A stretch of DNA of 64,000 nucleotides from Christensenellaceae bacterium (GTDB lineage Bacteria; Bacillota; Clostridia; Christensenellales; Christensenellaceae): the NCBI GenBank assembly GCA_022846035.1, contig AP025580.1, positions 310,001-374,000 of the forward strand, read 5' to 3'. Below the pieces are notes generated by a model. That model did no database searches. It was not told the origin of the DNA and saw nothing but the letters and a program-made list of their open reading frames with translations. Position numbers and translations under genes: made by a program. Shown piece by piece: positions 11,226 to 48,029 of this stretch. Position 1 is the stretch's first letter. Every line of letters starts with the position of its first letter.

Positions 11226-11250
11226 TGGTAGCGGCGAGTGGATTCGAACC
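11226..11250. repeat. attL core: displaced 3' end of tRNA-Met
   Basis: The 25 bases equal 47953-47977, running from the CCA end through the T-stem of the tRNA. Identity ends sharply on both sides. This is the standard product of tyrosine-recombinase integration into a tRNA 3' end. Confidence 0.85.
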
Positions 11251-11373
11251 CCAATATATAAATCAATATAAAAATTGTAATTGCCAAATATGGCTTAACA
11301 ATCATCATTTCAGTACATTTTGCATTTTGGATTATCAACGAGAAAAGGGCGATTATTACCACTTTAACGATCA

Positions 11374-11397
11374 AAGTGGGGTCAAAAGTGGGGTCAA
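11374..11397. repeat. Left integrase arm-type repeat
   Basis: Two AGTGGGGTCAA units in tandem with a 12-base period; the whole 24 bases recur at 47884-47907. It lies four bases beyond the integrase stop. Paired repeats on both sides of the core fit arm-binding sites for the integrase N-terminal domain. Confidence 0.75.
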
Positions 11398-11401
11398 AAA
11401 A

Positions 11402-12532
11402 TCACTCTCCAAGTATCCTTTTAAAGGCATTGTCAATCATTTGTGCCGCCCTTGCAGCGTCACCCTCTTGTTCATGGCTGTACGTTGCAAAACCGTCAAA
11501 AGACTTGCTATGCCCCCCAATAGGCTTAATCAATTCTTCTGGAATGCCTTTGCCGACAGAAAAGAATGTGTGCCTCAATTCATAAGGAGATTTTTCGGAA
11601 ATCTTATTAAATGTCCTATATCTATTCCAGTTACGAAGATATACGCGCTGGACCGTACGTTCCCCATCTGGGGTCGGGAAAAGTGCATCAGATTGTATGC
11701 CGGCAGACAGGAGCATTTTGCGTTGCGCCCTAATCTCTGATAGGCCGATCTTTGGAATTTCAAATGTACGCAGCGCGATCTCACGTGATGCGTTTTTGTC
11801 CTTACCCTTAGTTATTTCATCATACCGATTGAGCGACCTATTGATAGTACAACGGCTGCCTGAAATATCGGACATATCTAGCCCCAGCAATTCGCCTGGT
11901 CGTAACCCTATGATAGTCTCAAGGCGGTAGGCATGGATATACCAGTCATGGACAATCTTCCCTCTATACGTGGTCTTGTCACTGGAAAAGAGGGTCTTAA
12001 TATCATTGGGTTGCAACGCACCGCGAGAACTCCGTTGTGCGTCATTAGGAATCATCAGGCTTTCAGGAAGCAATGTGGTAACCCGTGCGATACGGCAGTA
12101 TTTTATGAAAGACCTAAGAACGGCCCTTAAATTCTTCAACGTTTTATAGGACAGGCCTTTACCGTGATTGCCGATTGAATGCGCATAGTTTATAATTCCT
12201 TGTAGGTGTTCTTCTGTTACTGTGTCAATCTTTTTATTGCCAATTTTCGGGGTAGCGTACAGGCGCAGGAACTTCTCGTTTTGCTCTATATGTTCACGGC
12301 TTACGTGACGATCTTTCAACGAATTAATAAAGCGGGCGATCATGATGGACGTTTTAACACTGCCGTCCACACCGTCATCCAGCCAAAGATCGGCCTTTGA
12401 ATTTGCTTCGCGCTGGCCCTTGCGTCCAGGAGTGGAAGAATAAAAGGTTCGCCTCTCCCCGTCCTTTTGTACGTTGATCCGCCAGCGTTTTTGCTTTTCA
12501 TTCCATGTAGCGGTATTGACCCTTTTTCCCAT
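11402..12532 (-). CDS. int: Tyrosine-type site-specific integrase
   Basis: 376 aa. The N-terminal beta-rich arm-binding domain (about 1-60, TATWNEKQKRWRINVQKDGE) is followed by a SAM-like core-binding domain (about 65-175) and the catalytic domain. Catalytic residues visible are Arg in GLRPGELLGL, Arg in YELRHTF (the preceding His is Tyr here), His in GGHSKS and the nucleophile Tyr in ATYSHE. It should recombine attP with the tRNA-Met 3' end. It sits at the left end of the element and reads outward. Confidence 0.93.
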   Translation of the reverse strand: MGKRVNTATWNEKQKRWRINVQKDGERRTFYSSTPGRKGQREANSKADLWLDDGVDGSVKTSIMIARFINSLKDRHVSREHIEQNEKFLRLYATPKIGNKKIDTVTEEHLQGIINYAHSIGNHGKGLSYKTLKNLRAVLRSFIKYCRIARVTTLLPESLMIPNDAQRSSRGALQPNDIKTLFSSDKTTYRGKIVHDWYIHAYRLETIIGLRPGELLGLDMSDISGSRCTINRSLNRYDEITKGKDKNASREIALRTFEIPKIGLSEIRAQRKMLLSAGIQSDALFPTPDGERTVQRVYLRNWNRYRTFNKISEKSPYELRHTFFSVGKGIPEELIKPIGGHSKSFDGFATYSHEQEGDAARAAQMIDNAFKRILGE

Positions 12533-12598
12533 AATAAAAAACTCCTTTCATTTCACCCCGCCCATATGGTAAAATAAAAGGGCAGGGTTCCTTTCCTC

Positions 12599-12627
12599 GT
12601 AGTGGTGGAATAAATTCTGCTTGCCCC
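12599..12627 (-). repeat. Copy 1 of GGGGCAAGCAGA...CCACCACTAC motif
   Basis: On the minus strand GGGGCAAGCAGA, nine other bases and CCACCACTAC lie between hicB and int. GAGGGGC at its start can pair with GCCCCTC near 12650, forming a hairpin downstream of the hicB stop. Copies 2 and 3 are at 16207 and 17299. Confidence 0.55.
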
Positions 12628-12659
12628 TCTTGTGTTGGTAGCGCGGAGGGGCTTTTAAT

Positions 12660-13049
12660 TTATCCGATTTTCTTTCTCAATGCTTCCTGTAGCGTCTGTG
12701 ACAGGCTTATTCCTGCACGCTCGGCCCGTGTTTCCATCCACGCAGGAATAGAGACGTTTTTACGAACGCTGCGGTTATCCGTTTCGGCTCTATACTGGTT
12801 TGTGTCAACGTCGATCAGCGCGGCAAATGCGCCATCTGGTACGTCTAAAGCACCCGGCAGCGTAGAGGTCGCGATTGGGTAGCCGTGATCCTCTGCGGAG
12901 CACAGACAGCCAGCTAGAGCATCCTTAGCTAACTCCATAGCTTCGGTTATATCTTTTCCGCTGGTTACGCAGCCAAGGACATCGGGAACCCTTACAAGAT
13001 ACCCTCCGCTTTCCTGCGGCTCAAATATCGCCGTGTATACGTATTTCAT
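12660..13049 (-). CDS. HicB-family antitoxin (second copy in the operon)
   Basis: 129 aa. The N-terminal HicB RNase H-like domain (YTAIFEPQESGGYLVRVPDVLGCVTSG) and a C-terminal ribbon-helix-helix-like segment (VSIPAWMETRAERAGISLSQ) are both present. The ATG at 13049 follows AAGGAGGAA. It lies 37 bases after the other hicB and is probably co-transcribed with hicA. It should neutralise HicA or a related toxin and bind the operon's operator. Confidence 0.85.
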   Translation of the reverse strand: MKYVYTAIFEPQESGGYLVRVPDVLGCVTSGKDITEAMELAKDALAGCLCSAEDHGYPIATSTLPGALDVPDGAFAALIDVDTNQYRAETDNRSVRKNVSIPAWMETRAERAGISLSQTLQEALRKKIG

Positions 13050-13086
13050 AGTATTCCTCCTTGCTTGAGAGGGGCTTTTTGTTTAT

Positions 13087-13512
13087 CTAGATAGCCTTTT
13101 TCTGATCGTCAATGCCCAATTGCTCGATAATGGCGTGCTGTAATGCTTGCGAAAAATTAACGCCTTTTTCAACGGCTGCTGCATTAAGCCACGCGGGGAG
13201 CGTCACAGTTCGGTTTACGGACTTGTTTTCCTCAGAGAAACGCACCGTAGGCATAAATACGTCTACCAACACAGCGCGCTCGTTGCTCTCGATGGCTAAA
13301 TCCTTTAAGGATGAAGGGACGGGGATATTTTCGCCTGCATTCTCCATACAATATAAATGTCCGCCTAAAGCTTCTTTTGCCATTTCAAGTGCTTCAACTT
13401 CATTTTCCCCGCATGTAGCGCACCCTGGAAGATCGGGGAAGGTCACGGCGATCTCAAATCCGTCCTCATATGTGAATACAGCAGGGAATATATATGTATT
13501 TTTCTTTTTCAT
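13087..13512 (-). CDS. hicB: HicB-family antitoxin (first copy)
   Basis: 141 aa with the same two-domain layout: YIFPAVFTYEDGFEIAVTFPDLPGCATCGE then VTLPAWLNAAAVEKGVNFSQALQ. It is only modestly similar to the second copy, so this is not a recent duplication. It lies 25 bases after hicA, the classical hicA-hicB order, and is therefore the likely cognate antitoxin. Confidence 0.88.
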   Translation of the reverse strand: MKKKNTYIFPAVFTYEDGFEIAVTFPDLPGCATCGENEVEALEMAKEALGGHLYCMENAGENIPVPSSLKDLAIESNERAVLVDVFMPTVRFSEENKSVNRTVTLPAWLNAAAVEKGVNFSQALQHAIIEQLGIDDQKKAI

Positions 13513-14318: not shown

Positions 14319-14579
14319 TCATTCGTAATGCGTCCACATGCTGCGTATAACGACGATTTGAGCGTCTTTATCCACTGAGTAGACCAATCTATGCTGTACA
14401 TTGATACGACGGCTGTAATAGCCTTGCAAGTCGCCTACAAGCTTTTCGTAAGGCGGGGGATTCTGGAAGGGATTTTGCTTTAAAATATTAATTAGCTCTC
14501 CGGCCTTTTTCAGTATACCCGCCTGTTTCAATTTTGCATAATCCTTGAAGGCTCGTTTTGTCAATTGCGCATCGTACAT
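14319..14579 (-). CDS. yoeB: YoeB/Txe-type mRNA interferase toxin
   Basis: 86 aa, the usual length. RelE-fold features include KRAFKDYAKLKQAGILKKAGELI and the C-terminal YYSRRINVQHRLVYSV with VIRSMWTHYE, where Arg and the terminal His-Tyr are the catalytic region of YoeB. It cleaves mRNA at the ribosome. It lies three bases after yefM, the canonical antitoxin-first order. Confidence 0.92.
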   Translation of the reverse strand: MYDAQLTKRAFKDYAKLKQAGILKKAGELINILKQNPFQNPPPYEKLVGDLQGYYSRRINVQHRLVYSVDKDAQIVVIRSMWTHYE

Positions 14580-14907: not shown

Positions 14908-15921
14908 TTAGTCGCTTGTCGGCGGCTCTTCTTTTGCCATTATCTCAATAATTTGAAGGATTTTCTCTTGGGTTTCAGGAGAAGATGATGACAGTAAATC
15001 AACAAGCTTATCGAGGACTTGAGCGTTTTTATGGTAGTTTCGATATTTTTTTTCCATTATTTTGTAATCCATATATTTTTTTCTAATGCTATTTAGACTA
15101 TAAAGCATTTCTTTCTGTTGCTCAGGAGAAAGGTGGTGCTTATATTTATTGAAAAAATCAAACATTTCTGAAATGTTGATATCCATCTTGTTAGACTCTA
15201 GATCGTCAGGGTTCATAAACGCTATAATTGATCCAGGCGGCATACCAGATAGCCTCTCAAACTCTCCAATATCACCTTCATCCAATGCCTTGGACAATTT
15301 TTTTGCATTTTTGCTTTCTACCCCATATAAATATTCGAATGGAAGCTGAAGATTAAAGGCATAGTCACTAATTTGCTCAATAGTAGGAATCTTTTCACCG
15401 TTTTCGTATTGGATAAGGAGTTTTAATGAAATATGTAACTTCTTGGACAATTCCTTTTGAGACCAACCATTATCGGAGCGGATTTCCTTTATTACATCAG
15501 AAAATGTTCGATCGTGCAGATTTTTTTTATCAAGGTATACGATATCCAATTTATTTTTTTCGGGAATATTAGTAATACTTGCAATATTTGAATCTATTAT
15601 TCTCCAATATTGAACATTAGTAATACTGCCGATTGGTTCATGGGGAGGGATATATAACCTCCGTTCGTTTAAAGCATGCAATATTGTATTTTTGAAAATC
15701 TCTAAAAGATTTAAATCTTCAAATGGTTGCTTGCTCAAAAAAAAGTTAACAGAAATACTCAACTGTTTTGAAAGTTTCTCAAGTTGTGCTATACCTGGAT
15801 TTCTGTTTCCTGCCTCGTATTGACGTATTGTTATAGTCGCAAGACCTGTTTTTTCGTGTAGTTGTTCTTGAGTAAGCCCACTTTCTTGGCGAAACAGCCT
15901 TATTCTCTCTCCAACGCTCAC
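14908..15921 (-). CDS. Phage repressor-like protein with two helix-turn-helix domains
   Basis: 337 aa. The first Cro/C1-type HTH is at about residues 4-60 (LTQEQLHEKTGLATITIRQYE), the second at about 137-195 (WSQKELSKKLHISLKLLIQYE). A C-terminal part rich in Lys and Tyr ends in a helical segment. There is no LexA-type protease motif. Its position, divergent from excisionase and antirepressor across an operator region, makes it the likely lysogeny repressor. Two DNA-binding domains in one chain is unusual for a C1 protein and might allow binding to both operators at once. Confidence 0.8.
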   Translation of the reverse strand: MSVGERIRLFRQESGLTQEQLHEKTGLATITIRQYEAGNRNPGIAQLEKLSKQLSISVNFFLSKQPFEDLNLLEIFKNTILHALNERRLYIPPHEPIGSITNVQYWRIIDSNIASITNIPEKNKLDIVYLDKKNLHDRTFSDVIKEIRSDNGWSQKELSKKLHISLKLLIQYENGEKIPTIEQISDYAFNLQLPFEYLYGVESKNAKKLSKALDEGDIGEFERLSGMPPGSIIAFMNPDDLESNKMDINISEMFDFFNKYKHHLSPEQQKEMLYSLNSIRKKYMDYKIMEKKYRNYHKNAQVLDKLVDLLSSSSPETQEKILQIIEIMAKEEPPTSD

Positions 15922-16333: not shown

Positions 16334-17095
16334 ATGAAAAACGAATTACAGATTTTCAAAAGTACACAATTTGGAGAAATGCGGACTCTAGAAGAGGATG
16401 GAAAAATACTCTTCTGTGGAAGTGATGCAGCCAAAGCATTGGGTTACGTAAAGCCGAACAATGCGATCAATCAGCATTGCAAAGATGCTACCCTAAAACA
16501 GGGTATCACAGACTCCTTAGGGAGGAAGCAGGATATTCTTTTTATTCAGGAAGGCGACCTTTACCGTTTGATTGTTGGTAGTAAACTTCCAGCGGCTGAA
16601 AAGTTTGAACGATGGGTGTTTGATGAAGTTCTTCCAACCATCCGTAAAAACGGATATTACGCCGCGAAAGCAAAAGAAGACGAACTCAAAGCTAAACGTG
16701 TTGAGATCATGCAGCAGAACGCAAGATCACGCGAGGCTGCTCTATGGCTTAAGATCGGCGAGAACGTACCAATGCCGGAGTACAAGCAGATATGCGCAAG
16801 TTACGCCAGCAAAACCCTTGCAGGATTGGCAGTATTGCCGTTGCCAGTAATGGATCATCAATATTACACGGCGCAGGAAGTAGGAACCCGTATCGGGATT
16901 ACTGGAAATATGGTCGGACGGATCGCTAATGCTCACGGCCTAAAAGCACCGCAAGGGCAGGCGAATAAATACGGACGGTGGTTCTGGGACAAAGCGAAGC
17001 ATTGCTCCAAAGAAGTTCCGGCATGGAAGTATACGGACGATGGAGCAAATGCTATAGAAAAATTTTTCAAGGAGGAAAAATCATGTTTTATGTAA
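16334..17095 (+). CDS. Phage antirepressor, BRO-N type
   Basis: 253 aa. The N-terminal BRO domain is clear (KILFCGSDAAKALGYVKPNNAI, then FIQEGDLYRLIVGSKLPAAEKFERWVFDEVLPTIRKNG). The C-terminal part (about 170-245, YYTAQEVGTRIGITGNMVGRIA) looks like a further HTH-type DNA-binding domain. Such proteins counteract the lysogeny repressor during induction. A real ribosome site (AGGAA) precedes ATG 16334. Confidence 0.88.
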   Translation: MKNELQIFKSTQFGEMRTLEEDGKILFCGSDAAKALGYVKPNNAINQHCKDATLKQGITDSLGRKQDILFIQEGDLYRLIVGSKLPAAEKFERWVFDEVLPTIRKNGYYAAKAKEDELKAKRVEIMQQNARSREAALWLKIGENVPMPEYKQICASYASKTLAGLAVLPLPVMDHQYYTAQEVGTRIGITGNMVGRIANAHGLKAPQGQANKYGRWFWDKAKHCSKEVPAWKYTDDGANAIEKFFKEEKSCFM

Positions 17096-18902: not shown

Positions 18903-19637
18903 ATGACATCGGGAGGATTCATAAAACTTCATAGGAAATTGACGGAATGGGAGTGGTATTCCGATCCATGCACAAAGGATGTATTTCTCCATCTCTTGTT
19001 GACCGCCAATCATAAGACGCGGCGCGAAAAGGGAGTTACATATAAACGCGGGCAGGCGTTTTTTGGGCGGCGGGAAATGGCTTTGAAATTGGGGATTTCA
19101 GAACGCAACGTGCGCACTGCGCTAAATCATCTAAAATCGACCAACGAAATAACCATCAAAGCGACCAAGCGCGGAAGCGTCGCAACCATTGTTAATTATG
19201 AGAAATATCAAGTGAAAGATACTGGAAACGTCCAACAAAGTGACCAAGGCAATGACCAGAAAGCGACCAACACCCGACCAACAAGTGACCAACAGGTGAC
19301 CACTAACAAGAATGATAAGAATGAAAAGAATATAAAGAGAGGGGGGGCTTTTGACCCCGAACCCCTCCTCATGGAAAAGGGATTCAGTCCAAAGATCGAG
19401 GAGGCCATCAGAGAGTGGTGGAGGTACAAGAGCGAAAGAAAAGAGGCGTACAAAGAAACGGGCTGGAAAAAACTTTTATCTCAATTCCAGAATAAAATTA
19501 ATGCCTATGGGGAACAGGCTTTGATTGAAGCACTGGACAGGGCGATCTCTTCAGGGTGGAAAGGATGGGATTTTGAAAGCAGCTTTCCGCAGGACGTAGA
19601 AGCGCCACAGTACAAGGAGATAATTTATGACGACTGA
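18903..19637 (+). CDS. Phage replisome organizer / replication initiator protein
   Basis: 244 aa. The N-terminal part (FIKLHRKLTEWEWYSDPCTKDVFLHLLL, then GRREMALKLGISERNVRTALNHLKSTNEI) is the winged-helix DNA-binding domain of phage replication proteins. A polar Gln/Asn/Thr/Lys linker (about 110-145) leads to a DnaD-like C-terminal domain (EWWRYKSERKEAYKETGWKKLLSQF). It should bind the origin and recruit the DnaB-type helicase encoded next. The linker-coding DNA holds six iterons (19240-19304), so the origin probably lies inside the gene. Confidence 0.82.
   Translation: MTSGGFIKLHRKLTEWEWYSDPCTKDVFLHLLLTANHKTRREKGVTYKRGQAFFGRREMALKLGISERNVRTALNHLKSTNEITIKATKRGSVATIVNYEKYQVKDTGNVQQSDQGNDQKATNTRPTSDQQVTTNKNDKNEKNIKRGGAFDPEPLLMEKGFSPKIEEAIREWWRYKSERKEAYKETGWKKLLSQFQNKINAYGEQALIEALDRAISSGWKGWDFESSFPQDVEAPQYKEIIYDD
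19240..19304 (+). repeat. Six GTGACCAA-type iterons, likely phage replication origin
   Basis: Copies of [G/A/C][T/C]GACCA[A/G/C] start at 19240, 19252, 19263, 19274, 19285 and 19296. The spacing is 12, 11, 11, 11, 11 bases, close to one helical turn. Looser copies occur at 19138 and 19161. They lie in the linker region of the replication protein gene, the usual place for phage origins. Confidence 0.75.
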
Positions 19638-20985
19638 ATTAGAGTTGATACCACAAAATTTAGAAGCGGAACGTAATGTTCTGGGCGCGGCGCTGCTGAA
19701 GCCTGATTGCGCGTACGAAATGTTGGCGCGTACAGATCGGTATGATTTTTGCAACATCGTTCACATGTATACTTTTGACGCAATAGCAGACCTTGTACAA
19801 AGAGGAATTACGCCTGACATCGTGACGGTGAACGAGTATCTGGAAAGTAACAAAAAGGCGAATATGGGAACAATGGAGTTCCTCTCCGGCCTTGTAAGCG
19901 GGGTAGTATCAACGTCCAATGTGGACGCCCATATTGATATTATCCTTGAAAAATCAAAGCGCCGGCGGTTCAAAGAGATATGCAGCAGGGCGGTGACGGC
20001 AGCGTCCGATCCTGAAAATGACATTGACGAAATAGCGGGCGACCTGTGCAACGAGATATACGATCTGGATAAACGGAAGTCAGATATAAAATCGCTCAAA
20101 ACGGCATATCAGGAAGCCTATGCGGAGATCGTAGAAGCTGTAGAGGCTAAAAAAAGAGGTGAATACCTGGGGCTGCAAACTGGATTTGCAAGACTGGATA
20201 GGACGCTTGCAGGACTAAAGAAAGGGGAGCTTATTGTAATCGGCGCAAGATCAAGTATTGGAAAAACATCTTTTGCCATGAACATAGCCGACCATGTAAG
20301 GCGGGATCACAAAGTTCTGTATTTTTCCCTCGAAATGAAACCCTCGCAGCTTGCGATCCGGCCTATGGCGGGGGAAACGGGAATCTCTATGCAGGACTTA
20401 AGAACGGGCAACATTGATGAAACAAAAATCAAAAAGATTTCAGATTGCCTAAAGGGTGTACGAGAAAACATGTATATAAGCGATAGCTTCAGCCAGAGTA
20501 CGACAGACATTATGGCGATCTCCCAGAAAATGAGGAGGGAGCACGGTCTTGATTTAATTATCATAGACTATCTCCAGTTAATAAAGCGCACGGAACATAA
20601 GGACAACGAAGTGCAGGCCCTTGATGCGATAACAAGGCAATTAAAAATCATTGCCGGCGAATTGGATGTTCCCGTTATTCTCTTAAGTCAGTTATCACGG
20701 GAAGCGGATAAAGGGAATAAAGAACGCCAGAGGGGAAAACTTCCTGATTTATCTGATTTACGCGGAAGCGGTGCAATTGAGCAAAACGCCGACGTTGTAA
20801 TGCTTCTTCATAGAAAAGATAGGAACAGCACAGAGGCAAAGCTTATTATTGCCAAGCAGAGAAACGGAGCGACGGGCATGACAGGGCTTTATTGGGACGG
20901 TGAGAGGACGCGCTTTACCGAAGAAGACAATTTTCATAGATACACGGGAAGAACGCCTTTTGAGGAAAAGGAGGCAGAATATTGA
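19627..20985 (+). CDS. dnaB: Replicative DNA helicase, DnaB family
   Basis: 452 aa, full length for DnaB. The N-terminal domain (IPQNLEAERNVLGAALLKP) is followed by the RecA-like domain with Walker A GARSSIGKTS and Walker B IIIDYLQLI. Later motifs are LLSQLSREADKGN and DLRGSGAIEQNADVVMLLHR. It unwinds phage DNA at the fork. It overlaps the replication protein gene by 11 bases. Confidence 0.94.
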   Translation: MTTELELIPQNLEAERNVLGAALLKPDCAYEMLARTDRYDFCNIVHMYTFDAIADLVQRGITPDIVTVNEYLESNKKANMGTMEFLSGLVSGVVSTSNVDAHIDIILEKSKRRRFKEICSRAVTAASDPENDIDEIAGDLCNEIYDLDKRKSDIKSLKTAYQEAYAEIVEAVEAKKRGEYLGLQTGFARLDRTLAGLKKGELIVIGARSSIGKTSFAMNIADHVRRDHKVLYFSLEMKPSQLAIRPMAGETGISMQDLRTGNIDETKIKKISDCLKGVRENMYISDSFSQSTTDIMAISQKMRREHGLDLIIIDYLQLIKRTEHKDNEVQALDAITRQLKIIAGELDVPVILLSQLSREADKGNKERQRGKLPDLSDLRGSGAIEQNADVVMLLHRKDRNSTEAKLIIAKQRNGATGMTGLYWDGERTRFTEEDNFHRYTGRTPFEEKEAEY

Positions 20986-23941: not shown

Positions 23942-23946
23942 CGGGC

Positions 23947-38629: not shown

Positions 38630-38692
38630 AAAAATAGTAGTTTAATATAACTTAAGCTTACAATAAATGCCATAAAGTTGTAAATAAATTAA

Positions 38693-38745: not shown

Positions 38746-38792
38746 ATTAAATATGATCTACATCAAATAAGTGTAAACATGAGGGAAAATCC

Positions 38793-39845
38793 ATGCGTGA
38801 AATAAAAAACAACAACGAGGTAACAATTAAAGAAGTTGCTGAAAAAGCTGGTGTTTCACAAGCCACGGTTGGCAGGGTGATTGGTGGGTATGGAAGTGTT
38901 TCCCCAAAAACAAGAGATAAAGTATTGGCGGCGGCTAAAAAGCTTAATTATGTTCCCAATGCGATTGCGCAGAGTATGAAAAGTAAAAACACTCGAACAA
39001 TCGGTGTAGTTGTTGGAAACATAGAAAACCCGTTTTTTAGTGAAATAGTGCATGCGATTGAGCGGAGAAGTGCGGAAGCGGGCTTTCATCTGATTATCAG
39101 CAATACAGGAGAGATAGCGGAGCGGGAAGTAGAGGCGCTGCAGCTATTGCATAGCAAACGAGTAGACGGTTTGATTGTTGCGACCACGCAACCTGCTAAT
39201 AAGGTTTTTGACGAACGCGAACAAAGGCTGTACTATGGGTTGATTCCGACGATTTATATTGACCGGGAAATTTTCGGTGTCAATGAATTGTGTGTAAAAA
39301 CAGATAATTTCGGGGGAGCATATGAAGTTACAAAAAAGTTTATAGAAAATGGACATAGTAAAATTGGTGTCCTGGCAGGGAAAAAGACAAGCACAATGGA
39401 TCAGCGGGTGGACGGTTATCGTAAAGCGTTGGAGGATCATGGTATCGCTTTCAACGAATGCTATATCGATTTTGGCACGGAAGGCTCCATTGAGGAGGGA
39501 TGCAACCTGACAAAACGGCTTTTAAAGAATAACAAAGAACTGACAGCGCTATTTCCCTTGAATAGTTTAATCTGTACTGGATGTCTTCTGGCATTACATA
39601 AACTGGAAAAGAAAATAGCAAAAGATATTAGTTTAATTGCGTGGGATGATTTTCCCCTGGCGAAAATTCTGGATCCGCCGCTCTCCACAATGACCCAGGA
39701 TACGGATAAAATTGGAACCGTTGCCATTGAGAAACTTCTTGAAACCATAGAAGGGAAAGAAAAAGGAAACGAGCTTTACGGGGAAAAAAGAATTACTTTG
39801 AAAACACGTTTTATTGAGCGCGAATCTTGCGCGAAGATTAATTAG
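38793..39845 (+). CDS. LacI-family transcriptional regulator
   Basis: 350 aa. The N-terminal HTH and hinge are typical (VTIKEVAEKAGVSQATVGRVI, then LNYVPNAIAQSMKSKNT). A periplasmic-binding-protein-like effector domain follows (IGVVVGNIENPFFSEIVHAIE). GAGGGA precedes ATG 38793. It should repress the locus until a sugar or sugar phosphate binds. Its own operators lie just upstream. Confidence 0.92.
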   Translation: MREIKNNNEVTIKEVAEKAGVSQATVGRVIGGYGSVSPKTRDKVLAAAKKLNYVPNAIAQSMKSKNTRTIGVVVGNIENPFFSEIVHAIERRSAEAGFHLIISNTGEIAEREVEALQLLHSKRVDGLIVATTQPANKVFDEREQRLYYGLIPTIYIDREIFGVNELCVKTDNFGGAYEVTKKFIENGHSKIGVLAGKKTSTMDQRVDGYRKALEDHGIAFNECYIDFGTEGSIEEGCNLTKRLLKNNKELTALFPLNSLICTGCLLALHKLEKKIAKDISLIAWDDFPLAKILDPPLSTMTQDTDKIGTVAIEKLLETIEGKEKGNELYGEKRITLKTRFIERESCAKIN

Positions 39846-39876
39846 CATATTTGGATTAGCCCAAGGAGAAAACAGA

Positions 39877-40545
39877 ATGAAACAAGGGATATCTGCGTCG
39901 GTAATGTGCGTAAATTTTGCTGACACCAAAAAAGATCTTTGTGAATTAGAAAAAGCAAAAATTGAATACTTACATTTTGATATTATGGATGGAACATTTG
40001 TGCCTAATTATGCCCTCGGTACCGGCATTATTGATAGCTTGAGGGATCAGACCGATATTGCGTTTGACATCCACCTGATGGTAACAAATCCCGAGCAAAA
40101 AATAAATTATTTTAACTTGCGCCGTGGCGACGCTGTTTCGGTGCATGCGGAAAGTACATTCCATATACAACGTATATTGGCAAATCTGAAAGATAGTGGC
40201 CTTTTCGCGGGAGTCGCGTTAAATCCGGGAACACCAATAGAAACGCTGGACTTTATCACAGATGTCATAGATTTTGTATTGATCATGACGGTTAACCCGG
40301 GATTTGCAGGACAAAAAGCAGTCCCTTCCATGCTGGAAAAGATAAGCAGGACAAAGGAATATCTCCTTTTCAAGGGACGCGATGATGTAACAATCCAGGT
40401 AGACGGCAATGTGAGTTTTGAAAATGCTTCAAAAATGAAAGCAGCTGGAGCAGATAATTTTGTGGCGGGCACATCTGGTATTTTCAGAAGAGATATGAGC
40501 ATTGCGGAAGCGGCTGCAAAATTGCACAGCAGTATTGGAGCATAA
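39877..40545 (+). CDS. Ribulose-phosphate 3-epimerase family protein (possibly allulose-6-phosphate 3-epimerase)
   Basis: 222 aa from ATG 39877 after AAGGAG. The TIM-barrel motifs of RPE are present: YLHFDIMDGTFVPNYALG (metal-binding His and Asp), FDIHLMV, MTVNPGFAGQKAV and IQVDGNVS. It interconverts keto-sugar phosphates at C3. Beside a ManA-type isomerase and an RbsA-type importer it resembles AlsE of the D-allose pathway more than housekeeping RPE, but substrate is inferred only. It overlaps the next reading frame by one base. Confidence 0.85.
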   Translation: MKQGISASVMCVNFADTKKDLCELEKAKIEYLHFDIMDGTFVPNYALGTGIIDSLRDQTDIAFDIHLMVTNPEQKINYFNLRRGDAVSVHAESTFHIQRILANLKDSGLFAGVALNPGTPIETLDFITDVIDFVLIMTVNPGFAGQKAVPSMLEKISRTKEYLLFKGRDDVTIQVDGNVSFENASKMKAAGADNFVAGTSGIFRRDMSIAEAAAKLHSSIGA

Positions 40546-40562
40546 TGAGAAGGAGCAACAAG

Positions 40563-41528
40563 ATGCTATACCCTTTAAAATTCAATCACATCTATAAATC
40601 GATGCCATGGGCGGGTCGTGACTTTGAATTGTTCAGAAACGATTTACCGGAAGGGATTGTTGGCGAAAGCTGGGATATTGCTTGCCATGAAGAAGGAACA
40701 AGCATTGTGGCAAATGGGGCTTATGCGGGGTTGTCACTGGAAGATATGGTGCGCCGGTATGGGCCGCAATTACTGGGAACGAAAATGAATAGGATTCCTA
40801 TCATGCTCCGCCTTGTCAATCCAAGAGAACGGCTTTCCGTGCAAGTACATCCCACAGACAAGTATGCAAGAACATGTGGGGCGGCAGAGGGGAAAACCGA
40901 AGCGTGGTATGTGATGGAGGCCTTTGAAAATGCATTTATGTATATAGGTGCAAAGGGCTGTACTTCGCAGAAATTTCTGGAAAAAGTGAAAGATGGGACA
41001 GTAGAGGAATGTTTGCATAAGGTGCAGGTAAAAAAAGGCGACTTTTTCTATATTCCAAGCGGACAGGTGCACGCCATGGGACCGGATCTTGTGGTACTGG
41101 AAATTGGACAAAATGCCAACTGTACTTATCGTTTGTTTGATTATGGCAGGGGAAGGAAACTGGATATCGATGACGCGGTTGAAGTGATGGATCTGACCAT
41201 ACCAATAAAAAAATCACGAAACCTGACAATATCGCATGATGGATACCAGAAAACTATTTTGTGTGTAAGTGATTATTTTTCCTGCGACCTGATCTCTATC
41301 GATACTTCTTACGGCGCAATGTCTTATAGCAAAGCATTCCATACCTATACCTGTGTGGAAGGCTGCGGCATCATTCATTATCAGGATGGAATGGAATACA
41401 TAAAAAATGGAGACAGCCTGTTGATCCCGGCTGCTTTGGGATCCTATCGCATCACAGGCAGGCTCAAGCTGGTCAAGACGATGGTTGGCGAAACACAAGA
41501 GCAAGTCGAGAAAATTGTTTACCAATAA
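40563..41528 (+). CDS. Mannose-6-phosphate isomerase type I (cupin isomerase)
   Basis: 321 aa. ATG 40563 has GAAGGAG seven bases ahead, better than the ATG at 40545. MPWAGRDFELF, then RLSVQVHPTDKYAR, GKTEAWYV and FFYIPSGQVHAMG supply the zinc ligands of ManA. It converts aldose and ketose 6-phosphates. It lies between the epimerase and the hydrolase genes. It may be specialised for a sugar other than mannose. Confidence 0.9.
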   Translation: MLYPLKFNHIYKSMPWAGRDFELFRNDLPEGIVGESWDIACHEEGTSIVANGAYAGLSLEDMVRRYGPQLLGTKMNRIPIMLRLVNPRERLSVQVHPTDKYARTCGAAEGKTEAWYVMEAFENAFMYIGAKGCTSQKFLEKVKDGTVEECLHKVQVKKGDFFYIPSGQVHAMGPDLVVLEIGQNANCTYRLFDYGRGRKLDIDDAVEVMDLTIPIKKSRNLTISHDGYQKTILCVSDYFSCDLISIDTSYGAMSYSKAFHTYTCVEGCGIIHYQDGMEYIKNGDSLLIPAALGSYRITGRLKLVKTMVGETQEQVEKIVYQ

Positions 41529-41659: not shown

Positions 41660-42565
41660 ATGAATGTAAAAGAAGCTATGAAAGACCACAATGGAAAACC
41701 AATGAAACATGGCAAGGAAGATGTGAATGGCGTTAGGCTGCACTATGCAATCGCAGGCTCGGGCCCCCTGGTAGTTTTGCTGCATGGCGTGCCAAAGACA
41801 ATGTATTTTTGGCGCCGGGTGATTCCCTATCTGACGCCGCACTATACAGTGCTAACACCTGATATCAGGGGATTTGGTGATTCGGAAAGGCCGGACAAGG
41901 GCTATGACACACAAACAATTGCAGAAGATATTGCGCAGCTTGTCACGGCGCTTGGCTATGACAAATTCCGTGTTGTAGGTGAAGATTGGGGTGCTGCCTT
42001 TGCTTATGCAGTAGCTGCATTCAATAGGGACAGGGTAATTCAGCTTGTATATGAAGAAATGATGCTGCCTGGTCTTGGATGGGAAGACGGGCCTGCCGAT
42101 AGGGTAAAAAGGTTCAAGCGTTGGGATACACGCAATTTATGGCATTTGAATTTCTTCTCTTTGCCGGGATATCCGGAAATGCTTTTGGCAGGAAAAGAAA
42201 AAGAGTTCTGGGGAACATGGATGAGGAGCGAAATGTATGATCCTTCCGCTTTGTCCGACGACGAGTTGGATGAATATGTACGCTGGATGAAAACTCCTTG
42301 CGGGATGCGTACTATTTTTGAAGTGTACCGCGAAAGTGAAACAGATGCGGAACAGAACAAAAAACAGTTTGAGAAGAAGCTGGAGATGCCTGTTTTAGCA
42401 GTTGCGGGGAAACACTTTTTTGAAGACGAGGCATTGAGTCAAATGCGCCAGGTTGCGGAAAATGTGCGTGGCGTTATCCTTGATTGCGGGCACAATCTGC
42501 CTTTAGAGCTTCCCGAAGAAGTTGCAAATGAATACCTGAAATTCTTTAACGAAATCAAAGACTAA
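41660..42565 (+). CDS. Alpha/beta hydrolase, epoxide hydrolase / haloalkane dehalogenase-like (paired with importer C)
   Basis: 301 aa, start ATG 41660 after GAGGAGG. HGVP (42-45), nucleophile elbow GEDWGAA with Asp109, and catalytic His278 (DCGHNLPLE) match the protein at 9384, as do HGVPKT, RGFGDS and GEDWGAA context. The cytoplasmic location and Asp nucleophile point to opening of an epoxide, ester or carbon-halogen bond. It directly precedes binding protein C, whereas in locus B the hydrolase is last. Confidence 0.85.
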   Translation: MNVKEAMKDHNGKPMKHGKEDVNGVRLHYAIAGSGPLVVLLHGVPKTMYFWRRVIPYLTPHYTVLTPDIRGFGDSERPDKGYDTQTIAEDIAQLVTALGYDKFRVVGEDWGAAFAYAVAAFNRDRVIQLVYEEMMLPGLGWEDGPADRVKRFKRWDTRNLWHLNFFSLPGYPEMLLAGKEKEFWGTWMRSEMYDPSALSDDELDEYVRWMKTPCGMRTIFEVYRESETDAEQNKKQFEKKLEMPVLAVAGKHFFEDEALSQMRQVAENVRGVILDCGHNLPLELPEEVANEYLKFFNEIKD

Positions 42566-42673
42566 TTCAAACCGAATACCAATCCTCTTGTTTGCATAAT
42601 CGGATGAGAGGATTGGAGTTTAGCAACGATGGACACAGACGTTTGTTTTGTGTACGAAAAAAAGGAGAAAAAG

Positions 42674-43945
42674 ATGAAAAAACTAGTATCAATTCTATTA
42701 ATTACCATACTTGCAATTGCACTTTTTGCATGCGCCCCATCGGACGTTCCTGCCGAAACAGGCCAATCGCAAGAGCCGGTAGCGGCAACACAAGAACCGG
42801 CAAGCACTGCGGAAGCAGCTGACGGAAACGAAGATTTTGTCGTGGAATGGGAGGGTGTGACACAACCTGCATGGTTTGAACAACCGACGCAGACACAAAT
42901 TGAGATTGCCCAAATGGACGAAGTGGATCAAGTAAATTGCACTCCTTATGTGGAAGGCATCGAGGAGGAATCGGTGGATGCCTCTGCAATCGAACTCACA
43001 GAGGACCAGATTGCGCAGGTGCAGCAGGCGGGCCTTAAGGCTGCCATTTGTATGCACTCTATGAGTTTTGATTGGCCGCAGCAGCAAGTGGAAGGACTAA
43101 AAACGGAATTTGAAAAGATGGGGATTGAAGTGATTTCTGTGGCAGATTCCAATTACAACGATGCAGACCAGATGGCACAGGTACGGGCGGCCATTACAGC
43201 AGGCGCAGACATCATTGTCAGCCTCCCTGTAGACCCGCAGACAACACAAATCGCGTTCCAAGAGGCGTCGGAGGCAGGCGTAAAACTGGTTTTCATGAGC
43301 CAGGCCCCGAATGGAATGAAGGCTGGAGAAGACTATGTCTCGGTCGTAGTGCCGGATGATTTTGGTAATGGTATTGTTTCGGCAGATCTTATGGCGGAAG
43401 CAATCGGTGGATCTGGAGAAGTTGCGGCGGTATACTATGCAACAGATTATGACACGACCAACTTGCGTTATCTTGGTTTTGTGACAAGGCTTAAAGCAAA
43501 ATATCCGGATATTGCATTGGTGGAAGCACAAGGCTTTGCACATCAGGATGATACCCAGGGTATCGGAAATGCGCTTTTCACAAAATATCCGGAGCTCGAC
43601 GCCATATGGGTTGCATGGAGCGTTCCCGCAATGGGTGTGGTTGCATCAGCGAGATTAGCGAATCTCCAGCCGCAGGATTGTTATATTATTACGGAAGACC
43701 TGGACAATGATTCGGCGCTTAGTATTGCGGAGCAATCCTATATTTATGGATTGGGTACACAGTTCCCGTATGATATGGGCATTACAGAAGCAAGGCTGGC
43801 TGCGCTTGCGTGTATTGGCGAGTCCGTTCCTCCCCTTATTTCTTATGCCAATATGAAAGTGGATAGAAGTAACCTTCTGGAAGCGTATGACGCAGTTTGG
43901 CATGTTGACCCGCCTGCAGAAATTGTGGCAGCAATGGAAGAATAA
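42674..43945 (+). CDS. Sugar-binding lipoprotein C (Peripla_BP_4 type)
   Basis: 423 aa; ATG 42674 follows AAAGGAG. The lipobox LFAC puts the lipidated Cys at residue 20. It shares with protein B the aromatic pre-domain segment (VTQPAWFEQPTQTQIEIAQ) and with A and B the lobe motifs (ICMHSMSFDWPQQQVEG, GIEVISVADSNYND, KLVFMSQAPNG, VAAVYYATDYD). It is closer in layout to B than to A. A strong hairpin separates it from the ATPase gene. Confidence 0.9.
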   Translation: MKKLVSILLITILAIALFACAPSDVPAETGQSQEPVAATQEPASTAEAADGNEDFVVEWEGVTQPAWFEQPTQTQIEIAQMDEVDQVNCTPYVEGIEEESVDASAIELTEDQIAQVQQAGLKAAICMHSMSFDWPQQQVEGLKTEFEKMGIEVISVADSNYNDADQMAQVRAAITAGADIIVSLPVDPQTTQIAFQEASEAGVKLVFMSQAPNGMKAGEDYVSVVVPDDFGNGIVSADLMAEAIGGSGEVAAVYYATDYDTTNLRYLGFVTRLKAKYPDIALVEAQGFAHQDDTQGIGNALFTKYPELDAIWVAWSVPAMGVVASARLANLQPQDCYIITEDLDNDSALSIAEQSYIYGLGTQFPYDMGITEARLAALACIGESVPPLISYANMKVDRSNLLEAYDAVWHVDPPAEIVAAMEE

Positions 43946-43968
43946 TTGGCGCTGACGGTAAGAAAGCT

Positions 43969-44002
43969 TACACCGCTACTCCAAACACGGAGTAGCGGTG
44001 TA
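43969..44002 (+). other. Intercistronic stem-loop between binding protein C and ATPase C
   Basis: TACACCGCTACTC and GAGTAGCGGTGTA form a perfect 13-bp stem with an 8-nt loop; no T-run follows. It stands in the same place as the hairpin in locus B but is unrelated in sequence. Confidence 0.7.
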
Positions 44003-44020
44003 AAGCAAAGGTGATTAAAT

Positions 44021-45517
44021 ATGGAAACGATGCTTGAAATGAAAGGTATTGAAAAAGCATTCGATGGGACGACTGTTTTAAACAATGTAAACTTTCAGCT
44101 GCAAAAAGGCGAAGTACATGCACTCTGCGGCGGGAATGGAGCAGGAAAGTCCACATTGATGAAAATCCTGACTGGCGTTTATCCAATGGATGCGGGCTGT
44201 ATCCGCATTGCTGGAAAAGAAGTGGAAATTAAAACGCCGCATGATTCCGAAAAAAATGGAGTTTCAATGATATTCCAGGAATTCAGCTTAGTCCCATCCA
44301 TGACGGTTTCCCAGAATTTATTTTTAAACCGTGAACATACTAAGGGCGGTATGATGGTGGACGACAAAAGGTGTATTGAGGAAGCGGCCCAAATGTTTCA
44401 AAAATTGAATGTTGAGATAGACCCAACTGCCCTTGTGGAGACTCTTTCGGTCGGATACATGCAAATGGTGGAAATTGCCAAAGCGTTGCTTGCAAAAAAT
44501 ACACAAATCCTGATCATGGACGAGCCGACAGCTTCCTTGTCGGATTCCGAAACGGAAGCGCTATTTACACTGATAGGTAATTTGAAAAAAAGTGGTATTT
44601 CTATCATATATATTTCCCACCGATTGTCTGAAATATTTAAAATTTGTGACCGGATCTCCGTATTAAAAGATGGCAGGTCGGTACTCACTAAAAAGAGTGA
44701 AGACCTGACGATGGATCAGGTGATAAAAAGTATGGTAGGAACCGAAGTGGACAACTTCATCTATATAAAACGTGATCAGCCGCGTGGTAAAAGCCCCGTA
44801 TTTGAAGTCAAAAACCTAACGATGGGTACGGCAATCAGGGATGTTTCCTTTGACATATACCCTGGGGAAATTGTCGGCCTGGCCGGATTGATGGGTAGCG
44901 GCAGGACGGAGATTGCAAGATGCCTGTTTGGTATAGATACACCCGACACTGCTGAAATTTATGTCGATGGGAAACGAGTGACCATACATAACCCGCAGCA
45001 GGCAATGCAAAATGGCGTTGCTTTGGTTCCGGAAAACAGAAGGACGCAGGGTCTGGTCATCGATCACTCTGTCAAGGACAATGTAATATTGCCCCAAATT
45101 GACAATCTTACCACGGGATTGGTCGTCAGCGAAAGGCAAAGTAACCAATTGGTGGAAACATACATCAAGAGGCTGAATATTAAAACAGACAGTATGAATA
45201 CCGTGGTTCGCTTATTGTCGGGTGGAAACCAACAGAAAATAGTACTGGCAAAATGGTTGGCCCGCCACCCCAAGGTGTTGATATTGGATGAGCCGACAAT
45301 AGGCGTCGACATTGGGGCCAAAGGAGAAATTATTGGAATTATGCGTGAAATGGTGACAGACGGCGCAGGAATACTGGTGATATCGTCAGAATTTGAAGAA
45401 CTGATTGCGGTGAGCGATCGGTTGCTCATCCTTAATAATGGAAAAATCACTGGCGAAATGCAGCGGGAAGAAATAAATTCGGAGGAGGAACTGCATTATG
45501 CAATCCAAGGGAGCTAA
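44021..45517 (+). CDS. Sugar ABC transporter ATPase C (RbsA/MglA type)
   Basis: 498 aa. Walker A GGNGAGKST, variant signature LSVGY and IMDEPTASLS in domain 1; GLMGSGRTE and LLSGGNQQKIVLAKWL in domain 2. It is a close paralog of ATPases A and B but with more AT-rich codons. The last codons overlap the permease start by 20 bases. Confidence 0.93.
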   Translation: METMLEMKGIEKAFDGTTVLNNVNFQLQKGEVHALCGGNGAGKSTLMKILTGVYPMDAGCIRIAGKEVEIKTPHDSEKNGVSMIFQEFSLVPSMTVSQNLFLNREHTKGGMMVDDKRCIEEAAQMFQKLNVEIDPTALVETLSVGYMQMVEIAKALLAKNTQILIMDEPTASLSDSETEALFTLIGNLKKSGISIIYISHRLSEIFKICDRISVLKDGRSVLTKKSEDLTMDQVIKSMVGTEVDNFIYIKRDQPRGKSPVFEVKNLTMGTAIRDVSFDIYPGEIVGLAGLMGSGRTEIARCLFGIDTPDTAEIYVDGKRVTIHNPQQAMQNGVALVPENRRTQGLVIDHSVKDNVILPQIDNLTTGLVVSERQSNQLVETYIKRLNIKTDSMNTVVRLLSGGNQQKIVLAKWLARHPKVLILDEPTIGVDIGAKGEIIGIMREMVTDGAGILVISSEFEELIAVSDRLLILNNGKITGEMQREEINSEEELHYAIQGS

Positions 45518-46481
45518 CAATCAGGGTGGTACCCTTACAAAGCCGTTCCATAAAAAAACTTTTTATTGGCATAACTACATCGTTTACATTGCGTTTGCGC
45601 TTGTTGTTATTGTATTTGGCATTCTGATCAACGACAGAGGGTTTCTAACGATAAACAATTTCATGAATATCATCCGGCAGACAACAATGGTAATTGTAAT
45701 GGGTGTGGCCATGACATTCGTAATGGCAAGCGGGGAAATTGACTTGTCCGTGGGTTCTACAACCGCTTTTGCAGGATTGCTGACCGCAATGGCATTGCAA
45801 AGTGGCGTGAATGTGTTTGTTGCAATCCTGATCGGCCTATCCGCCGGGTTGATTGTGGGAAGTATAAACGCAGTATGTGTGGCCCTGATTAAAATACCTT
45901 CTTTCTTAGTAACGCTGGGCACGATGATGGCATTCCGGGGTGTCGATATGTGGTTGACCAATACGTCACCAGTTCCGATTTTGAATGAAGAGTTCATTAC
46001 AATCTTTGGAGCTGGCAACATCGGCCCCATTCCTACGTTATTACTTTGGTCAATCGCAGTGACGATTGTAGGACATTTTGTATTGAAAAAAACAAAATAT
46101 GGGAGAAAAGTATTGGCGACCGGCGGTAACCGCACATCTGCGAAATATTCGGGAATTAATACAAAAAAAATTATCTTTTCTACATTCATCATAACAGGGC
46201 TTGCGGCTGCCCTGGCCGGATTACTTTATTCAGGATTGATGGCATCAGGCCGGTACAACTTTGGCGACGGAGATGAAATGGATGTGTTGGCCGCAGTCAT
46301 CATGGGAGGCACTGCCTTTTCGGGCGGAAGAGGGTCCATCATTGGAACTGTGGTGGGCGCGTTATTGATTAGCACAATCAATAATGCACTGATTCTGTTT
46401 GGGCTTGAACCGGCGCAGCAGATGGTGGTAAGCGGTGCTGTTATTATCGTTGCTGTTGCACTGGGAAGAAAGAACTCTTAA
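45498..46481 (+). CDS. Sugar ABC transporter permease C (RbsC type)
   Basis: 327 aa, ATG 45498 after GGAGGAGG inside the ATPase gene. The multi-spanning layout, GEIDLSVGSTTAFAGL and AVIMGGTAFSGGRGSIIGT are the family marks. The start MQSKGAN resembles permease B. It completes importer C. Confidence 0.92.
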   Translation: MQSKGANNQGGTLTKPFHKKTFYWHNYIVYIAFALVVIVFGILINDRGFLTINNFMNIIRQTTMVIVMGVAMTFVMASGEIDLSVGSTTAFAGLLTAMALQSGVNVFVAILIGLSAGLIVGSINAVCVALIKIPSFLVTLGTMMAFRGVDMWLTNTSPVPILNEEFITIFGAGNIGPIPTLLLWSIAVTIVGHFVLKKTKYGRKVLATGGNRTSAKYSGINTKKIIFSTFIITGLAAALAGLLYSGLMASGRYNFGDGDEMDVLAAVIMGGTAFSGGRGSIIGTVVGALLISTINNALILFGLEPAQQMVVSGAVIIVAVALGRKNS

Positions 46482-46530
46482 ATAAGCGCTATGCTTATTT
46501 AAAAAATATGATTACTAAATGGAGGGAATT

Positions 46531-47766
46531 ATGGCACTAATTATTGGTATGAACAGCGGTTCATCATTCGATGGGATTGATGTAATCCTTGCGGAAACAG
46601 AAATTGCAAACGATGGTTTTCCAAAACCCACAAAATTCTTGAAAGGAAATTCTTATGCATGGCCCAAAGAGGTTGAGGACATGATCATGCCGGCATTTGA
46701 TAACAAGGTCGACATGGTAGGAATGACGCGGCTGACTTACATTGCAGGCGCTGTGATGGCTGAATCTGTAAGAAAGTTTATGAAAGAAAACAAGATCGAT
46801 CCTAAGGATATCGAAGTACTGGGCGTAGATGGTCAAACAATTTATCAGGAACAGCCCGAACACATTAAAATTGCGGCGATGACAGACGAGCAAAAAGACG
46901 ATTGGGTATCAAGATGGCTGGACGGCCCGTATCCGGTTGGCTATCAGATTGGGGATACATCCGTTATTGCGGGATTAACGAATATCACGACGGTTACAAA
47001 CTTTCGCCAGGGCGACCATGTGTGGGGAGGCAGTGCAGCGCCGCTGATGCAATATTTTGATTTTGTATTGTTCCGTGATCGCGAAGAACCGACATTGACT
47101 TTAAATATCGGGGGCATTGCAAATGTGCATTTGGCATATAAGGACAGGAAGAAAATGGTTGCGTTTGATACGGGTCCTGGTAATTTGCTTTCCGACCATG
47201 CAGCCAGAATATTGGTAGGGCAACCTTGCGACTACGATGGTAAGATTGCAGCTGCAGGCAAAGTAAACAAAGAAATGCTGGATGAATTTATGGATCATGA
47301 TTTCTTTAAACGACCAGTCCCGCGTTCCGGCTGGAAGTATGACTTTTCGAAGGAATACACGGAAAAAATGCTTAAGAAATATGCAAACCTTTCTAAAGAG
47401 GATATTATGGCAACGATTTGTGCGTTCACTGCGGAAGCGATTGTAAAAAACATGAACGATTACATACCACAAGATATGTTGCAAAAAGTAAAAGTTATGT
47501 ATGCAAGCGGTGGCGGTGTAAAAAACCCAACTATTATGAAATATATACAAGAGCGGCTGCCGCAAAACATAAGGTTGGCATCTTCAGACGAGATTGGTAT
47601 TCCGCCAGAATATAAAGAAGCATGTAAATTTGCAACACTCGCGTATTCTACGATGCATAATATCGCAAATAATATTCCCGCGGCATGCCATGCTTCTCAA
47701 TATACAATTATGGGGAAGGTATCCTTTGCACCATGGAAGGCAAAATGTGTGGAACCGCTTGAATAA
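46531..47766 (+). CDS. AnmK-family anhydro-sugar kinase
   Basis: 411 aa. ATG 46531 is chosen since GGAGGG lies four bases ahead. Nucleotide-binding motifs of the ASKHA fold are GMNSGSSFDGIDV at the start, LNIGGIANVH, and FDTGPGNLLSDHAA with the catalytic Asp. The family phosphorylates and opens 1,6-anhydro-N-acetylmuramic acid, and levoglucosan kinase is a relative. It is longer than typical AnmK (about 370 aa), and its place at the end of a sugar import locus suggests a substrate other than cell-wall anhydro-muramic acid. Confidence 0.85.
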   Translation: MALIIGMNSGSSFDGIDVILAETEIANDGFPKPTKFLKGNSYAWPKEVEDMIMPAFDNKVDMVGMTRLTYIAGAVMAESVRKFMKENKIDPKDIEVLGVDGQTIYQEQPEHIKIAAMTDEQKDDWVSRWLDGPYPVGYQIGDTSVIAGLTNITTVTNFRQGDHVWGGSAAPLMQYFDFVLFRDREEPTLTLNIGGIANVHLAYKDRKKMVAFDTGPGNLLSDHAARILVGQPCDYDGKIAAAGKVNKEMLDEFMDHDFFKRPVPRSGWKYDFSKEYTEKMLKKYANLSKEDIMATICAFTAEAIVKNMNDYIPQDMLQKVKVMYASGGGVKNPTIMKYIQERLPQNIRLASSDEIGIPPEYKEACKFATLAYSTMHNIANNIPAACHASQYTIMGKVSFAPWKAKCVEPLE

Positions 47767-47801
47767 AGCTTATGGTCTATGGCAGTCATAAATGAAGGAT
47801 T

Positions 47802-47830
47802 AACCCCGGCTCTGTCTGGGGTTCTTTTTT
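47802..47830 (+). terminator. Terminator of the importer C locus
   Basis: AACCCC and GGGGTT form the stem with a 10-nt loop, followed by CTTTTTT. It lies 35 bases after the kinase stop. Confidence 0.8.
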
Positions 47831-47883
47831 ACACTATCCGTCCTTTTTTATTTGCTCAAAACATGGATTTGCGCTATTTGTTT

Positions 47884-47907
47884 AAGTGGGGTCAAAAGTG
47901 GGGTCAA
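47884..47907. repeat. Right integrase arm-type repeat
   Basis: Identical over 24 bases to 11374-11397, with two AGTGGGGTCAA units. It lies 45 bases inside the right att core, showing that the right end of the element is preserved. Confidence 0.75.
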
Positions 47908-47917
47908 CGGCAAAATA

Positions 47918-47950
47918 AAAACCCTATAAACTGCTGTTTAAAAGGGTTTA
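47918..47950 (-). terminator. Element-borne terminator for tRNA-Met
   Basis: AAACCCT and AGGGTTT pair around an inner TAAAC/GTTTA hairpin. On the minus strand it directly follows the tRNA and ends in a T-rich run, replacing the original terminator left at 11191. Confidence 0.6.
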
Positions 47951-47952
47951 TT

Positions 47953-48029
47953 TGGTAGCGGCGAGTGGATTCGAACCACCGACCAATCGGGTATGAACCG
48001 AGTACTCTAGCCAACTGAGCTACGCCGCC
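47953..48029 (-). tRNA. tRNA-Met (anticodon CAT), integration target
   Basis: 77 nt including an encoded CCA. Acceptor GGCGGCG pairs with CGCCGCT, D-arm GCTC/GAGT, anticodon loop TTCATAC, T-loop TTCGAAT. The CAT anticodon could also belong to a tRNA-Ile read with lysidine. The first base pair of the anticodon stem (C-T) is mismatched. Bases 47953-47977 form the att core. Confidence 0.9.

Follow-up and report, generated by a model that had tools for sequence, protein, structure and literature searches.

A sugar operon within a probably chimeric and defective prophage island at the tRNA-Met gene of a Christensenella genome

Results

The stretch analyzed here (the window) comprises 64,000 nucleotides of a genome of the genus Christensenella (family Christensenellaceae), assembled as one contig of 2,768,446 bp; it corresponds to G000:C1:310001-374000, and positions below are window coordinates unless a locus label (L0xx) or a genome is given. 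Between 11226 and 47977, two copies of an attachment (att) core delimit a unit of 36,727 bp, which encloses both prophage genes and an eight-gene sugar operon. The original prediction had given these coordinates, with core and arm repeats at both ends enclosing a sugar importer (importer C), and both points held: the cores and the arms are exact repeats, with phage and operon genes between them. We consider it likely that the element is a chimeric, defective, att-bounded prophage island. Its left 25.4 kb would be a prophage of short-tailed type (integrase, repressor, replication, terminase, portal, and capsid genes) whose late end is gone, and its right 11.2 kb would be bacterial DNA, namely a surface-protein gene reduced to its 3ʹ end, remnants, and a full LacI-controlled operon for sugar import and catabolism; the right arm and core that come next would be those of the phage.

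The left core (attL, 11226-11250) is the 25-bp repeat TGGTAGCGGCGAGTGGATTCGAACC, identical to the 3ʹ end of tRNA-Met, and the right core (attR, 47953-47977) agrees with it at 25/25 positions and is the 3ʹ end of the tRNA-Met gene itself (47953-48029, minus strand). The 36.7-kb integrative element would sit in the 3ʹ end of this gene, with the tRNA end restored by the attR core. The 17-nt heart of the core occurs three times in the window at up to three mismatches, compared with 0.17 copies expected from shuffles, and three exact copies exist in the entire genome. Inside the element there was no relict core, the best internal match to the 25-mer having 8 mismatches of 25. The third core copy, which is partial, lies outside the element at 11097-11120; as it is also present in the congener G004, it is older than the insertion. 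It was set aside as the att site of another element, G004 having the copy and G003 two of them. Partial copies of the tRNA end such as this one, together with some 120 bp of linked sequence, repeat outside the element in G000 (11097-11120), in G004 (L054), and twice in G003 (L059), and are possibly scars of earlier insertions.

A 24-nt arm-type doublet, AAGTGGGGTCAAAAGTGGGGTCAA, lies at 11374-11397, and its identical counterpart (24/24) at 47884-47907; at up to three mismatches, these are the only two places in the 2,768,446 bp of the genome. We infer that the doublets are arm sites of the integrase. The same layout is seen in a sister prophage of G002 with a 71% identical integrase, where doublets stand at the two equivalent places, AAGTGGGTTACAATGTGGGTTA beside int and AAAGTGGGTTCAAATGTGGGTTA at the opposite end. 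A second G002 prophage, the structural sibling described below, has another integrase and a doublet by the core at each end as well.

Five congeners (G001-G005) were compared, with the presence of the operon judged by its kinase as a marker. G004 has an empty site: the left flank of the window (10407-11250) aligns to L054 17334-18175 (84.9%) and the right flank (47948-50707) to L054 18146-20900 (76.4%), and the two alignments overlap by 30 bp at the core (L054 18146-18175) with nothing between, so that both phage and operon are missing. An insertion relative to G004 is thereby shown, but not a joint arrival of phage and operon in one event. The left flank is variable too, as two importer clusters (window 1-10400) have no match at the G004 site (L054 1-17333). 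At an E limit of 1e-3, the kinase was present in G001 (Christensenella sp. Marseille-P2438; LT700187.1) and G002 and was not found in G003-G005. The importer C operon had been proposed for a search elsewhere in related genomes, and G001 and G002 indeed have a related operon bearing the kinase, at a long distance from tRNA-Met (about 70 kb and about 1.03 Mb, respectively). The arrangement named as refuting, an operon beside the tRNA without the phage, was seen in 0 of the 5 congeners.

These comparisons bear on the view that the operon is old chromosomal DNA by the tRNA, alongside which a phage merely inserted. Two congeners do carry a related chromosomal operon; however, the right arm and sole right core of the phage lie beyond the operon, G004 has neither phage nor operon, and the G001 and G002 kinases are distant from tRNA-Met, and we regard this view as extremely unlikely.

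Other elements also seem to use the tRNA-Met gene as an integration hotspot. On its 3ʹ side, this tRNA is bordered in G002 and G005 by a different paired repeat (TTGTACGACA..TTGTACGACA; L056 and L060, with cores at 15815 and 6829, respectively), and G005 carries a Shedu SduA defence gene (L060 4514-5476) nearby. To the right of the tRNA in the window lies a conserved chromosomal gene (48173-49531) encoding a phage-integrase SAM-like domain, which is also found beside the tRNA region in G002-G005.

Phage genes were labeled from PHROGs and the other families from Pfam and NCBIfam, with solved-structure relatives used in addition for the operon enzymes. The minus-strand genes at the left end encode a tyrosine integrase (11402-12532; 376 aa, full length compared with its 71% identical homologue), two HicB-like proteins (12660-13512), a RelE-like protein (14319-14579), and a CI-like repressor with helix-turn-helix domains (14908-15921). 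On the plus strand follow an Ant/BRO antirepressor (16334-17095), a DnaD-like helicase loader and a DnaB-like helicase (18903-20985), a second RelE-like protein (22752-23024), the small and large terminase subunits (23561-25551), and a portal, a protein in the scaffold position (no family match, homologous in relatives), and a major head protein (25753-29550). Hallmarks of an integrated tailed phage are present (integrase, flanking att repeats, a relative's empty site, terminase, portal, and major capsid protein). The element has its own large terminase subunit, portal, and head protein, unlike a phage satellite of the phage-inducible chromosomal island type, and no relaxase or conjugation gene, the mark of integrative conjugative or mobilizable elements, was detected among the element open reading frames (ORFs) given to Pfam, a subset of all its ORFs.

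Relatives of the structural module, in the same gene order, were found in five IMG/VR contigs (L045-L049) and in the G002 structural sibling; terminase, portal, capsid, and virion genes are collinear at 36-76% identity. L047, L048, and this G002 prophage give equal identities and therefore probably represent one lineage rather than independent ones. The sibling (G002:C1 2953088 to 18481; L109, L108) is a 34.7-kb prophage straddling the arbitrary record start, with 34,685 bp between its cores. Its integrase and core are different from those of the window element, its giant gene is followed by lysis genes, and it has no operon. The sister prophage (G002:C1:2657806-2707605; L061-L063) is present as two tandem copies of 24.9 kb that are 99.96-100% alike, which represent either a double lysogen or an assembly duplication. 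In addition to its integrase at one end and paired arm repeats near the core at both ends, its replication genes are 70-90% alike to those of the window, whereas its core and site (no tRNA was found there) and its tail genes are different, it keeps an endolysin and a holin, and the stretch read contains no sugar operon. More distantly, Bacillus phage Page (Pagevirus) shares a podovirus-type portal (30%) and one virion structural protein with the element; its record is that of a lytic phage of 39,874 bp, and the cargo was not in the 24 kb read.

The late end of the phage part is broken. The gene of a giant phage protein with a PBECR3 domain (32749-36657, plus strand) is cut short, with about 1,303 codons kept. 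At a chimeric joint (36650-36670), the phage frame passes out of frame into a bacterial gene, and beyond about 36,657 the ORF adds 42 codons in the wrong frame of that gene. The latter (36660-38018, plus strand) is the 3ʹ end of a surface-protein gene with Big_2 repeats and an anchor-like C-terminus. Its 5ʹ part is lost, as the G009 homologue continues uninterrupted upstream of the start of the window copy (52% and 49% identity; E = 1.8e-92). An AT-rich non-coding stretch follows (38019-38792; guanine-plus-cytosine (GC) content 0.339) and ends in the promoter-operator region of the operon. The segment 36,657-38,792 between phage and operon, absent from the original prediction, is a join to truncated bacterial genes, which would have formed at about 36,657 by illegitimate recombination. 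Simple aberrant excision of the lambda-dgal type was set aside as the origin of the join, both arm doublets being present; such an event would not leave a complete right arm and core beside the cargo. The giant gene has a relative in G005 (31% identity) whose open frame spans 2258 aa and extends at least 500 aa beyond the aligned part, whereas the phage part of the window gene ends 133 aa beyond it. The C-terminal part of the giant protein had no relative in viral contigs or phages.

Upstream of the giant gene, a virion structural gene (30147-32001, plus strand) is split into two ORFs in different frames, while both halves lie in one stop-free frame in 8/9 relative loci; the ninth, L046, is truncated by the contig end. 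No endolysin or holin was recognized in the 34 phage-part ORFs scanned, all of at least 60 aa. Both G002 prophages have lysis genes between the late genes and the right arm. In the sister prophage, these are an endolysin and a holin (phrog_297, 5.4e-7), with the right arm just after; in the structural sibling, the order is giant gene, amidase endolysin, haemolysin/XhlA-like protein (1.9e-5), then arms and core, with a further small membrane-like ORF without a match in the lysis region. The complete late region with lysis genes that marks an active phage was not found in the window element. Because of the truncated giant gene, the absence of a recognized lysis gene, and the split virion gene, the prophage is not intact, and the phage alone would no longer be expected to burst cells. 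With a broken prophage and non-phage genes between its att sites, the element fits a degenerate-prophage genomic island with cargo.

Several observations weigh against this interpretation of a broken phage. The position-equivalent giant gene of the G002 structural sibling (2231 aa) is not significantly similar to that of the window (no blastp match at 1e-3; phmmer E 0.015), so the truncation is called from one G005 relative and L045. A giant-gene match was absent in 14 of the 16 genomes searched, and one of the two matches is G000 itself. The sister prophage, despite its homologous integrase, has other tail genes. A sequencing error might account for the split of the virion gene. Lysis genes may be present yet unrecognized: the virion protein at 30769, which in relatives is part of a virion gene, gave a weak, partial match to an amidase (E 8.1e-4).

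An alternative is a working temperate phage carrying the operon as a large moron, as first supposed. The integrase, repressor, terminase, portal, and capsid genes are full length, and the 36.7 kb of the element are near the 34.7 kb of the sibling and the 39.9 kb of Page, so that capsid size alone does not rule out packaging. Set against this are the truncated giant gene, the split virion gene, and the lack of any recognized endolysin or holin, and we find a working phage very unlikely. The idea of a temperate-phage-derived island with sugar cargo stands insofar as one att-bounded unit holds phage and operon, both lacking in the empty G004 site, and fails insofar as this is no simple temperate phage. 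Taken together, the truncation, fusion, split gene, and lack of a recognized lysis gene favor reading the cargo as bacterial DNA replacing the end of the late region rather than as an addition to a working phage.

The eight operon ORFs are each in one piece on the plus strand. They encode a LacI-family regulator (38793-39845), a protein of the ribulose-/allulose-phosphate 3-epimerase family (39814-40545), a type I mannose-6-phosphate-isomerase-like protein (40545-41528), an alpha/beta hydrolase with epoxide hydrolases nearest among solved structures (41660-42565), a ribose-type sugar importer of binding protein, double ATPase, and permease (42629-46481), and a sugar kinase like AnmK and levoglucosan kinase (46519-47766). 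A perfect LacI-type operator, TGATAACGTTATCA, lies at 38695-38708 as the sole exact copy in the genome, and precedes a sigma-70-like TTGACA/TATAGT pair read by eye. A near-copy with one mismatch occurs at 2164181; as a reversed control gave three sites per strand at one mismatch, only the exact match is telling. In the operons of G001 and G002, the operator 12-mer likewise precedes lacI, and L068 has it at one further place. Since the proteins are intact and the promoter carries the operator of the operon's own repressor, the operon appears to have been kept, and so the host would gain the use of a sugar.

As originally noted, the cargo is AT-richer than the flanks (GC 0.441 vs 0.522 and 0.524). 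The same prediction had called it paralogous to the flanking chromosomal importer, which holds for one half of its genes: identities to the flanking importers are 45% for the hydrolase, 36-38% for the binding protein, 50-52% for the ATPase, and 50% for the permease. The regulator, epimerase, isomerase, kinase, and operator instead resemble the different chromosomal operon of G001 and G002, with identities of 87% for the kinase, 57% for LacI, 58-60% for the epimerase, and 52-53% for the isomerase. That operon (LacI-kinase-importer-isomerase-MFS-epimerase, MFS denoting the major facilitator superfamily) has the same operator but differs in gene order, in an extra MFS gene, in the lack of a hydrolase, in a transporter only 30-44% alike, and in its chromosomal location; none of the window's phage genes was found around it. 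Judged from these identities, the operon looks like a recombinant of two local systems. The flanking importers themselves have a 57-nt repeat, 93% identical, at 187-243 and 5411-5467, shortly before the ORF at 268 and the binding-protein gene at 5472, which is possibly a shared control element of the two.

Searches for the donor covered the kinase, the binding protein (391 genomes of the class, E limit 1e-50), and the hydrolase (200 genomes of the order, E limit 1e-20), and in these the donor was not found. Kinase relatives in genome contigs came from three loci, LT700187.1 (87%) and two metagenome-assembled genomes named as Planctomycetaceae (71-72%), whose names may reflect binning. The binding protein matched the flanking importers and two G002 loci only (34-40%), and the hydrolase matched at 45-46% only, in G000 (the flanking gene), G002, and G003, the G002 and G003 copies having an internal stop.

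The GC content of the surface-protein fragment (0.547) differs from that of the operon (0.441), and the right part may therefore itself be composite. This gap also fits another history, in which a phage and, to its right, a non-phage island with the surface protein and operon stood in tandem as two elements of the same att type, until a deletion reaching from within the giant gene to within the surface-protein gene took out the att site between them and joined the two. The operon would then never have been phage cargo before the fusion, which is compatible with a chimeric, defective island as the present structure. An element with a homologous integrase does occur in tandem (the two 24.9-kb copies of G002), and directly beside the operon are a right arm and a core that are both complete. 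However, no trace of a middle core was seen, the best internal match being the one with 8 of 25 mismatches given above, though the model itself deletes that core; the right half lacks a second integrase; and the identical arms fit a single element at least as well. We hold such a fusion possible but doubtful.

As to function, the importer has the composition of a ribose-type (CUT2) system, with a Peripla_BP_4 binding protein, a double ABC ATPase, and a BPD_transp_2 permease. Among solved structures, the binding protein matched ribose-type binding proteins weakly. The kinase matched levoglucosan kinase 4zxz (E 4.8e-48, residues 8-402) ahead of AnmK (8.4e-41, residues 142-391). It passes the cut-off of the AnmK family PF03702 (266.5 vs 24 bits) and stays below that of the NCBIfam anhydro-N-acetylmuramic acid kinase equivalog (best 325.3 vs 387). 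The epimerase is closest to ribulose-phosphate epimerases, with allulose-6-phosphate epimerase lower down, and passes an NCBIfam subfamily model (196.9 vs 165); neither epimerase nor isomerase reached an NCBIfam equivalog cut-off. The best solved relative of the isomerase is a mannose-6-phosphate isomerase, and those of the hydrolase are epoxide hydrolases and Cif. With levoglucosan kinase as the closest solved relative of the kinase, an anhydrosugar is a plausible substrate of the operon. The host would import it, phosphorylate it with the anhydrosugar-type kinase, isomerize it, and epimerize it to fructose 6-phosphate, a route that would run from an anhydrohexose over a hexose 6-phosphate and a ketose 6-phosphate.

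Discussion

Pattern scans of viral contigs with the kinase, binding protein, and integrase, which reach close relatives only, gave no relative. A tblastn search with the kinase in 50,697 phage records gave three records at 27-28% identity, two of them annotated anmK in Acinetobacter phage MD-2021a, and the permease matched 25 records of the phage collection, each below 60% identity and including Salmonella contigs in that collection. Within these limited collections, no phage relative of the cargo was found. In the open-access literature, no paper was found on such an operon within prophage att sites in Christensenella, which is weak evidence. The csc sucrose regulon of E. coli W is likewise a sugar regulon beside a tRNA used by a prophage (the argW site), but it lies between the argW region and dsdX and is not stated to lie within prophage att sites (PMC3032704). 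The text on csc genes and argW prophages in PMC10132054 gave no precedent for the layout of this element. GI175 of Roseburia is also a degenerate prophage acting as an island with an operon, but with sporulation genes instead of sugar genes (PMC6907783).

A lysis-less prophage that swapped its lysis cassette for a self-regulated sugar operon might still move the operon, either by integrase-driven excision or by lateral transduction, with packaging from its own terminase start to the right across the operon and on into the chromosome, and with another prophage in the same cell lending lysis; we consider this unlikely. The distance from terS downstream to the operon, in the direction of packaging, is 15-24 kb, which is within one headful. 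Other terminase-like matches in G000 occur at 732-740 kb and, weakly, at 1417 kb, which makes a helper conceivable. For a Christensenellales bacterium, PMC12946183 reports a prophage of 36.8 kb, packaged reads of 37.4 kb, and possible lateral transduction; the nearness in size of that prophage to the present element may be chance.

The element shows at single-gene resolution how a complete sugar operon can end up within phage att sites, by replacing the late end of the phage. For the order to which the gut genus Christensenella belongs, packaging of prophage-adjacent DNA has been suggested (PMC12946183). Should the element still be able to excise or be packaged, carbohydrate use could spread among Christensenella by this route; if it does not move, it would be a snapshot of the domestication of a prophage for the diet of the host.

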